Assembly (NCBI GenBank): GCA_900299215.1
Contig: OMIY01000262.1
Span: forward strand, 1-39,116
Source: a bacterium
GTDB taxonomy: Bacteria > Bdellovibrionota_B > Oligoflexia > Oligoflexales > CAIYRB01
Length of the DNA stretch: 39,116 nt
Direction: 5' to 3'
Under the pieces are notes generated by a model. It had not been told where the DNA came from and searched no databases. It saw nothing but the letters and a program-made list of their open reading frames with translations. The translations under genes were made by a program, and so were the position numbers. Shown here piece by piece: positions 634-4,719 of this stretch. The first letter of the stretch is position 1; each line of letters begins with the position of its first letter.

Positions 634-1125
634 GTGAGTGCAGGTACCGCTACAGATCTCGAACGTGCGCGCCGTAGTCTCCGGTCGACGGTGATTGAGC
701 CTTTCAAGCAGATCAAGTTTGGGCTCTACGTGATCGGCGTGTCAGTAGCCTTTGTTGGCATCTGTGCACTGATGTTTGTGGTGGCCTTCAACGAGCAGTA
801 CAACCATGTGATGACTATTTTTAACGTAGTAGATCCAAGTCGTCAGTGGGAGCTCGTAACTAATGACGTGTTCTACACAAACGCGATCCGGATTGGTGCG
901 ATGTTGGCACTCTTCATTGCAGTGATGTTTACGATGGTTTTTAAGCTAACACACAGATATTACGGCCCTTTGGTCAGCATCGAACGCTTTGTCGAGCAGG
1001 TCACCGAGGGCGATTACAGCGTTCGCTGCAAAATCCGCGAAAAAGATGAACTGCACGATCTGGTCGGCAAGCTGAACCATATGGCTGAGGTGTTAGAGGG
1101 GCGTCACAAGCAGAACCGCGGGTGA
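634..1125 (+). CDS. Two-TM HAMP-domain protein without output domain
   Basis: This 163-residue protein starts at GTG 634 with GAAAGGG at 621-627 as ribosome binding site. Hydrophobic segments lie at about 30-52 and 84-106, separated by a short periplasmic loop of about 30 residues. A HAMP-like segment (about 107-156) follows, with PLVSIERFVEQVTEGDYS and the DEL/DLxxKLN heptad pattern of the second helix. HAMP modules normally relay a transmembrane signal to a kinase, methyl-accepting or cyclase domain. Here the chain ends right after the HAMP, so the protein must act through a partner or as a dimeric membrane scaffold. Stand-alone HAMP proteins of this size are known in deltaproteobacterial-type genomes. 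The function is not assignable. Confidence 0.85.
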   Translation: MSAGTATDLERARRSLRSTVIEPFKQIKFGLYVIGVSVAFVGICALMFVVAFNEQYNHVMTIFNVVDPSRQWELVTNDVFYTNAIRIGAMLALFIAVMFTMVFKLTHRYYGPLVSIERFVEQVTEGDYSVRCKIREKDELHDLVGKLNHMAEVLEGRHKQNRG

Positions 1126-1198
1126 AAATGTCCTTGCACTTTTGCACGGACCTAGTTACCTTCGGCAACCCTATATCACTAGCAGTTGGAGTTCTGAC

Positions 1199-1303
1199 TT
1201 GCACGGTTCTAGACACAGAAGAAAACATCCCAAAGGTCGCCGCAAAGTTGGTCGTAAAAAGCGTAGGATGATGCGCAAGCGTCGCCAGCTCCGGACTATC
1301 TAA
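1199..1303 (+). CDS. Very small Arg/Lys-rich protein (34 aa)
   Basis: A TTG-initiated frame of 34 codons ends in TAA at 1301-1303. TTGGAG at 1186-1191 gives a well-spaced ribosome binding site. The product starts MHGSRHRRKHPKGRRK and continues with GRKKRRMMRKRRQLRTI. It has 12 Arg and 6 Lys in 34 residues and no acidic residue at all. Such composition is typical of RNA-binding ribosome-associated peptides (bL34, bL36, THX and the bacterial COX24/AURKAIP1-like proteins). I cannot align it convincingly with any of these, so ribosome association is inference. It sits between a HAMP gene and a hairpin region and is read as a stand-alone transcription unit. The absence of acidic residues, the Shine-Dalgarno sequence and a downstream hairpin argue for a real gene. 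Confidence 0.62.
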   Translation: MHGSRHRRKHPKGRRKVGRKKRRMMRKRRQLRTI

Positions 1304-1392: not shown

Positions 1393-1450
1393 GAAAAAAC
1401 ATCTTGGCGATCAGGCAACAGCCTGTAATCGGCCGGGATGGTTTTTTTTT
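1393..1450 (+). terminator. Strong rho-independent terminator
   Basis: CATC (1400-1403) pairs with GATG (1437-1440), the inner CAGGC/GCCTG stem has an AACA loop, and CGAT/ATCG lies between. The stem is preceded by an A-tract and followed by nine T (1442-1450). It lies in the 424-base stretch between the HAMP gene and the next long coding region. It ends transcription from the small basic gene or attenuates transcription into the coiled-coil/Lon operon. Its presence rules out a start of the downstream gene near 1370. Confidence 0.75.
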
Positions 1451-2259: not shown

Positions 2260-4719
2260 GTGCCTAAAAAGCAGTTGCGGCCGACCGAGCGCAAGAAGCC
2301 TGCGGCAGCAAAGGCGGCGCGCTGGACACTACCCAAACCAGTGCCAGCGCGCCTGACATATCTCAAGTGTCCAACCAGCTTATTTAAGTTTAAGGACACC
2401 TCGGACCTAGCCAAATCCCATGACATCATCGCCCAAGATCGAGCGGTTGGTGCAATCAACATGGGCCTAGGGATCCGCAAGCCCGGCTATAATATCTACG
2501 TCGCTGGAATTCAGGGTACGGGCAAGACGAGTGTCATTCGCTCCTTTCTCGAAGAATGGTCGAGCGATTCCCCACGCCCCTGTGACTATATTTACGTCTA
2601 CGACTTTGAAGATACCGAATCTCCTAAGGCGATCAAAATGCCGGCGGGTGAAGGTCGCAAGTTTAAAAAGCAGATGGACGCACTGATTAAACAGCTGCGC
2701 GAATTAGTGCCGTCGGCACTACAAAGCGAAGACTACGAAAACGCTGTTAACGCCTACGTCTCTGCCTCCAATGAACGCAAAGCCAAGCTTTACGCCGAGC
2801 TAGAAAAACTTGCCAAGTCGATGGACTTCGTCATCAAGTCGACCCGCATGGGGATCGAGACGATTCCAGTGGTTGATGGGCGCGCGTTGACCGAAAAAGA
2901 GTACAGTAAACTCGGTGACGCCGATCGTGAATCAATCGAGGACAGACGGTCCCAGCTCGAACCTGAAGTCCTCGATTTTGCCAGAAAAGTACGGGCAATC
3001 GAGCAGGAAACCAGTGGCTTTGTCGAGTCACTGCGCAATGACCTTGGTCTGAATCTCGTGGGTCGTGAGATCGACCCTTTGCTTGAAGAGTATAAGGATC
3101 ATAGTGAGATTGCCGCACATCTGACCGCAGTCAAAAACCATATTCTGGAAAACTTGCTAGATTTTGTCGACGAGAGTCACGAGCAAGAGCAAGAACCTGC
3201 GCACATGATGAACGAAGAGCGCGATCGTTTTGTCAAATACAAGGTCAACGTATTTGTCGACAATACAAACGTTCAAGGCGCTCCAGTCATCATCGAATCA
3301 AATCCGACCTACTACAATTTGTTCGGTCGGATCGAAAAAAATGTCGAACACGGCATGTACCTAACCGATTTCACCATGATCAAAGCCGGTGCCATCCATC
3401 GTGCCAACGGTGGGTACTTGGTGCTGAATGCCATGGATATCTTTAAAACCACGAGCATTTGGGACACGCTGAAACGAGCTCTGAAAAATCGTCTCGGTTT
3501 CATTGAAGATATGGGTGAGCAGTATTCACTTTTGCCGACATCAGGCTTAAGACCGGTGCCAATTCCGCTCGATGTCAAAGTGATCCTTATCGGCAATAAC
3601 GACATCTATCACTTGCTTCACTCCGGTGATGAGGATTTCCATAAAATCTTCAAAATCAAAGCGGATTTTGATCACCGGATGACCCGCAATGCAGAGACTG
3701 TCAACGCCTATGCGAGCTTCATCGCTACGCGTACTCACGTCGAAAACTTGCTCCCATTCAATGCGGATGGAATCGCAGCCGTGGTTGAGTATGGCTCGCG
3801 TATGGTGGAAGATCAGCGTTTTCTCTCAACGCAGTTTGCTGAAATCAAAGATCTGACAATTGAAAGTGACTACCTCGCTCGTGGTGAGAAGGCCAAAGAG
3901 GTGACGCGATCGCATGTCGAGCAAGCTTTGGACTTAAAGCATCACCGCTTAAGTTTGGTTGAGGAGCAAATGCTCGAAATGGTACGCCAGGAAGACATCA
4001 TGCTGAGTGTCGATGGCAGCCGCATCGGTCAGGTAAACGGACTAGCGGTGTATGACCTGGGCGATTTTTCTTTTGGTAAATTGGGTCGCATCACTTGCAC
4101 CGTATCGATGACCCGCGAGGGCATCTTTAATATCGAGAGAGCCAGTCGCCTTTCAGGCAAGATCCACGACAAAGGTATATTTATCCTTAGCAGCTTTCTT
4201 AATGCTATTTTAGCTAAGGAGGAAGCCCTAGGTATAGCTGCCAGTATTTGTTTCGAGCAGTCTTACGGTGTGATCGACGGTGACAGTGCCACCGTTGCCG
4301 AAACCGTGGCCGTGCTCAGCTCACTGGCTGAAATACCTGTGCATCAGCATGTTGCAATGACTGGCAGCCTTAATCAATTCGGCGATGTGCAGCCGGTAGG
4401 CGGAATCAATGAAAAGGTCGAAGGCTTCTTCAAAACTGCGCGCTTGATTGGCAAAGGTAAGTGTTACGACGTCTTGGTTCCGGCACAAAATATCCCTAAT
4501 CTCATGCTTCACTCCGAGGTTAGAGCTGCTATTGATGCTAGGAAATTTAGAATCTTCCCTATACGTAGCATCAATGATGCCTTTGAGCTAGCCACTGGAG
4601 TACCTTTGGGCTACACGCAAGTGCAGCACGATGCGTTTCCCGAAGGAACTGCACTGGCCACCATTGTGGCCAAGTTGGCTAAACTCAGGAAGGCTAAAAA
4701 AGCCAAGAAACACGACTAA
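2260..4719 (+). CDS. LonB-like ATP-dependent protease (AAA_32/Lon_C family)
   Basis: This 819-residue cytosolic AAA+ protease starts at GTG 2260, with AAAAGGGAT as ribosome binding site. The Walker A motif GIQGTGKT is at 83-90. A long charged helical insertion (about 120-320) precedes the second half of the ATPase core, with NGGYLVLNAMDI as the likely Walker B region. The C-terminal Lon protease domain carries Ser676 in DGDSAT and Lys719 in GGINEKVEGF. Their 43-residue spacing matches the Ser-Lys dyad of E. coli Lon (679/722). It lacks the N-terminal substrate domain of classical Lon. This makes it a member of the group that includes E. coli YcbZ (COG1067), which degrades damaged or regulatory proteins. 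The tail is Lys-rich (KLRKAKKAKKHD). It follows the coiled-coil gene with a 17-base gap. Confidence 0.95.
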   Translation: MPKKQLRPTERKKPAAAKAARWTLPKPVPARLTYLKCPTSLFKFKDTSDLAKSHDIIAQDRAVGAINMGLGIRKPGYNIYVAGIQGTGKTSVIRSFLEEWSSDSPRPCDYIYVYDFEDTESPKAIKMPAGEGRKFKKQMDALIKQLRELVPSALQSEDYENAVNAYVSASNERKAKLYAELEKLAKSMDFVIKSTRMGIETIPVVDGRALTEKEYSKLGDADRESIEDRRSQLEPEVLDFARKVRAIEQETSGFVESLRNDLGLNLVGREIDPLLEEYKDHSEIAAHLTAVKNHILENLLDFVDESHEQEQEPAHMMNEERDRFVKYKVNVFVDNTNVQGAPVIIESNPTYYNLFGRIEKNVEHGMYLTDFTMIKAGAIHRANGGYLVLNAMDIFKTTSIWDTLKRALKNRLGFIEDMGEQYSLLPTSGLRPVPIPLDVKVILIGNNDIYHLLHSGDEDFHKIFKIKADFDHRMTRNAETVNAYASFIATRTHVENLLPFNADGIAAVVEYGSRMVEDQRFLSTQFAEIKDLTIESDYLARGEKAKEVTRSHVEQALDLKHHRLSLVEEQMLEMVRQEDIMLSVDGSRIGQVNGLAVYDLGDFSFGKLGRITCTVSMTREGIFNIERASRLSGKIHDKGIFILSSFLNAILAKEEALGIAASICFEQSYGVIDGDSATVAETVAVLSSLAEIPVHQHVAMTGSLNQFGDVQPVGGINEKVEGFFKTARLIGKGKCYDVLVPAQNIPNLMLHSEVRAAIDARKFRIFPIRSINDAFELATGVPLGYTQVQHDAFPEGTALATIVAKLAKLRKAKKAKKHD

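Follow-up and report, generated by a model that had tools for sequence, protein, structure and literature searches.

A previously overlooked, ultra-conserved basic mini-protein of Oligoflexia and relatives as a candidate ribosomal protein

The 39,116 nt stretch of contig OMIY01000262.1 analysed here (in the following, the window) contains a strongly conserved protein-coding gene which had not been recognised before. It is present in one copy in this genome. The 34-residue product, MHGSRHRRKHPKGRRKVGRKKRRMMRKRRQLRTI, has 12 Arg, 6 Lys and 3 His residues (Arg plus Lys, 53%) and neither Asp nor Glu, as the first-pass annotation of this DNA had described it: more than half basic and without any acidic residue. 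The suspicion voiced there that so short a gene had been overlooked was justified, as it is conserved in 55 out of 58 genomes and neither Pfam nor NCBIfam holds a family for the peptide. Judged by its sequence, its predicted structure and the analogy to other lineages, the mini-protein is probably a lineage-specific ribosomal protein. The gene and the elements surrounding it are given in Table 1.

Table 1. Location of the mini-protein gene and its flanking elements in the window
Feature	Position	Strand	Remarks
Leader, genus-conserved	1130..1198	+	Six genus members lined up
Shine-Dalgarno core GGAG	1188..1191	+	7 nt 5' of the start codon
Mini-protein gene	1199..1303	+	Start TTG, stop TAA; based on translation, homologues and codon analysis
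Long imperfect hairpin 3' of the stop codon	1304..1395	+	-33.1 kcal/mol, z -3.3
Hairpin plus T run, resembling an intrinsic terminator	1400..1450	+	Closes the unit 5' of the coiled-coil gene

Conservation of the peptide in relatives had been set beforehand as a test of the gene. By profile search, 55 out of the 58 genomes examined from the window's phylum were found to carry the mini-protein, which rules out a chance open reading frame. A single-sequence tblastn search detected it in 54 out of 56 relatives, with 54 strong matches that are 78–97% identical and free of internal stop codons. The three genomes for which no profile match was found are G014 (680 contigs), G056 (1060 contigs) and G044 (9 contigs), and a DNA search for the region was empty in all three. 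G044 also lacks the adjoining gene, which G045 of the same genus possesses; therefore, the whole region appears to be absent or diverged in G044. Repeat searches of the phylum, for THX and with the bS22 profile, drew 56 genomes instead of 58. A scan of GTDB contigs yielded 16 loci with the mini-protein, titled Oligoflexales, Silvanigrellaceae, Silvanigrella, Pseudobacteriovorax, Bdellovibrio sp., unspecific MAG names and, in two cases, Bacteriovoracaceae. This group of bacteria, in which predators and parasites of other organisms are found, and its relatives keep the mini-protein nearly unchanged.

A second group consisted of genomes around the first Bacteriovoracaceae genome, of which 240 were drawn evenly and searched with an E-value limit of 0.05. 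Matches were obtained in 14 of these; five weak ones (E 0.004 to 0.05) were dropped: G258, G263 and G214 once their sequences had been read, G099 and G241 solely because of their scores. The remaining nine are clear homologues, for instance MASGSRHRRKHNKGRRKRGSKYRKNLRLRKKQRS, and in a profile test their similarity to the window family exceeded what composition explains (p 0.0003). Two further genomes of the second group, G087 and G079 (loci L116 and L117, outside the match list), hold a canonical bS22, MGSVVKKRRKKM[SA]KHKRRMWRRR..., and not the mini-protein; its scores lie under the NCBIfam cut-off, and both bins could be contaminated.

For synteny and codon counts, 52 of the 54 tblastn matches from the window's phylum were combined with the nine second-group loci, giving 61. 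The motif GSRHxRKHxKGRRKxG forms a nearly fixed core in both groups, and the C-terminus is variable. Sixteen columns are invariant among 30 distinct sequences, and 16 are likewise invariant in 18 rows with the second group included. The mini-protein is under purifying selection at the codon level. Differences at codon positions 1, 2 and 3 amount to 12702, 6140 and 26666, and comparison of the window copy with the remaining ones gave pS 0.72 and pN 0.13 (pN/pS 0.18). Within the genus, five comparisons gave ratios of synonymous to nonsynonymous changes of 8:1 (twice), 6:0 (twice) and 1:0, the values of 8:1 and 6:0 being those of the four more distant copies. Frame-neutral substitution, which the first-pass annotation had named as the pattern speaking against the gene, is thus not seen: third codon positions vary most. 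Arg codon usage, compared with the neighbouring genes as an indicator of expression bias, was higher in 21 out of 42 loci (p 0.83).

The start codon is at an identical position in 61 out of 61 genomes (27 GTG, 23 TTG, 11 ATG). The good ribosome binding site claimed earlier is present in the window as the GGAG core (Table 1), and a Shine-Dalgarno core was seen at 54 of the 61 homologous loci. Directly 3' of the HAMP gene, six genus members share a conserved leader block with TTGCAC, a spacer of 17 nt and TACCTT or TAACTT (TA(C/A)CTT), elements which we read by eye as -35 and -10. This leader is likely to be the gene's own promoter. A promoter consensus score made no difference between the loci (9.08) and shuffled sequences (9.04), and a simple promoter and terminator scan of positions 1050–1600 returned no site, in the case of the terminator probably because its stem definition permits no bulges. 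The terminator-like region downstream of the gene, also proposed at first sight of the sequence, was found again: the hairpin at 1400–1440 (-23.2 kcal/mol, z -4.7) is followed by nine T at 1442–1450, and 36 out of 61 loci carry a hairpin with a terminal T run no more than 200 nt past the stop codon, versus 1 out of 61 after shuffling.

Searches of the libraries for known relatives remained negative. Neither Pfam nor NCBIfam contains a family matching the window peptide up to E 1 or any of the 30 A1 members up to E 10. The sole match in PDB was an unrelated Get2 peptide for the window peptide (E 0.27) and uL3 for the profile (E 5.4); Foldseek gave no structural match, and an hhalign comparison aligned one column only. 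A mobile or phage gene was rejected, as no relative was found in phage and plasmid collections, which were searched without a positive control. A literature search with the peptide strings returned 0 papers, and among the papers listed by further literature searches none was, judged by title or abstract, on a ribosome structure from this bacterial group. AlphaFold2 predicts an extended N-terminus followed by a helix at residues 19–33 (mean pLDDT 81.5), an arrangement that in the model resembles mini-proteins of other lineages.

What could such a peptide do? According to the first-pass annotation, it resembles ribosome-bound mini-proteins in composition and not clearly in sequence, and this still describes the situation, as no significant link to solved ribosomal proteins was obtained. 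Probably, it belongs to a type of ribosomal protein that is already known, but by sequence constitutes a new family. In the proposed arrangement the extended N-terminal half, MHGSRHxRKHPKGRRKVG, rich in Gly, His, Arg and Lys, would thread into rRNA, the basic C-terminal helix (residues 19–33) would lie in an rRNA groove, and the peptide would serve the ribosome as a permanent structural clamp. That Gly, His, Arg and Lys are so strictly kept, in a peptide whose window copy is rich in Arg and Lys and lacks acidic residues, agrees with fixed contacts to a single conserved RNA. A permanent clamp on rRNA would likewise agree with the small size, the extreme basicity, the invariant Gly and His positions and the near-universal presence. 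Also counted in favour of a ribosomal role are the purifying selection, the behaviour of the gene as its own unit and a uL13-uS9 operon located at most 2.7 kb away in 5 out of 12 genomes of the families f12 and f13, in four of them convergent. Against it we count, besides the missing link to solved ribosomal proteins, the lack of an Arg-codon expression bias, a most conserved block that has no counterpart in bS22 and the presence of recognisable second-group copies in only 9 out of 240 genomes. Lineage-specific mini ribosomal proteins recur as unexplained cryo-EM density because annotation skips them; with its fixed start codon and diagnostic core motif, the mini-protein is a candidate defined ahead of any map.

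As to its site on the ribosome, our guess is the small-subunit pocket formed by h27, h44 and h45, filled elsewhere by bS22, mS38 and eL41. According to PMC10618245 and PMC10085706, peptides of this type are bound in this pocket in Actinobacteria, Bacteroidetes, Borrelia, mitochondria and eukaryotes. A new family of ribosomal mini-protein at a site that no other known protein occupies, sharing no ancestry with bS22, THX or bL37, ancestral to the Oligoflexia/Silvanigrellia lineage and shared with some Bacteriovoracaceae, is possible but somewhat doubtful.

Rather unlikely is a true but diverged member of bS22/mS38 (AURKAIP1/COX24, PF08213, NF047430), lengthened at its N-terminus and placed in the same pocket. 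The bS22/mS38 proteins are alike in size class (about 30 residues), strongly basic composition and C-terminal helix, and are often unannotated. The C. acnes bS22 is 33 residues long (PMC10085706); that of Borrelia is 61% Lys/Arg, had been unannotated and, like the window gene, begins with a non-AUG start codon (PMC10618245). By eye, the best register is ungapped over q14-31, RRKVGRKKRRMMRKRR versus RKKMSKHKRRMWRRRN. Furthermore, the phylum appears to have no recognisable bS22 of its own: 4 out of 56 genomes matched the profile, all with E above 0.15. However, the mini-protein carries an additional N-terminal block, GSRHxRKHxKGRRK, which is absent from bS22, and its helix starts only past Gly18. 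The sequence match is not significant; no hit to PF08213 or NF047430 reached the curated score, and the bS22 profile A5 found the mini-protein in 0 out of 56 phylum genomes. The library result is weak evidence against bS22, because the family libraries also overlook the bS22s of Flavobacterium and Borrelia, which are proven by structure. Our composition-controlled profile tests, in which shared basic composition was given no value, gave p 0.20–0.88 for bS22, but they are home-made and of low power: two of three accepted bS22 control pairs pass, and the third, Bacteroidetes/Borrelia versus Actinobacteria, fails (p 0.32).

A small nucleic-acid binder acting off the ribosome, for instance a nucleoid or protamine-like protein or an RNA chaperone, is unlikely. 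The composition alone would suit such a protein, and the sequence is tied to no ribosomal family. Protamine-like proteins are variable in sequence, and the 16 invariant positions, Gly and His among them, therefore count against it.

Another known mini-protein site, occupied by a THX-like or bL37-like protein, is less probable still. All of these are basic and small; bTHX (TIGR04560) is a tiny small-subunit protein of some lineages only, bL37 a lineage-specific protein of Actinobacteria with 24 residues. The second-group segment KRGSKYRKN resembles by eye parts of both, and no THX scored over the cut-off in 56 phylum or 240 second-group genomes, but the resemblance does not go beyond composition in the same low-power tests (p 0.31–0.999 for THX, 0.26–0.50 for bL37). 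Moreover, TIGR04560 gave 0 matches with the window peptide, the 30 A1 members and three second-group variants, and the ANHGKRPN end of bL37 is absent. The Arg/Lys-rich eL41, tested with a provisional sequence, gave p 0.09 and 0.26 at similarly low power. It forms, according to PMC10618245 and PMC10085706, a single helix in the bS22 pocket, and in contrast to the mini-protein it has about 25 residues and no extended N-terminus.

Genomic context, too, had been suggested as a check, and it holds in part. A coiled-coil gene adjoins the mini-protein gene on the 3' side in 36 of the 40 loci from the window's taxonomic order and in 36 of 52 own-phylum loci overall, but it does not define the gene, being next door in 0 out of 12 f12/f13 and 0 out of 9 second-group loci. 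These changes of neighbours between families, together with the terminators at 36 of 61 loci, show that the mini-protein gene travels as an independent unit, often with a terminator of its own. A leader peptide or regulatory RNA of the downstream coiled-coil and Lon-like genes, suggested by this frequent adjacency and by the strong hairpins past the stop codon, was rejected as extremely improbable on the amino-acid constraint with its three-base periodicity, the change of neighbours, a coding stretch that folds no better than shuffled sequences (z 0.43) and the lack of any Rfam match.

Of the neighbours themselves, the HAMP protein (window 634–1125) combines an N-terminal half of membrane-like character with a HAMP domain and has no kinase or effector domain; its gene is mostly divergent in relatives and runs in the same direction as the mini-protein gene in the window and at L005. 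The coiled-coil gene (1370–2242) codes for a protein of about 235 residues with homologues in 36 of 52 loci; one homologue matched no Pfam family below E 0.001, and the window copy gave only a weak hint of FliG_M. Further downstream, positions 2260–4719 encode a LonB/LonC-like AAA+ protease (AAA_32, LonB LID, LonC helical, Lon_C).
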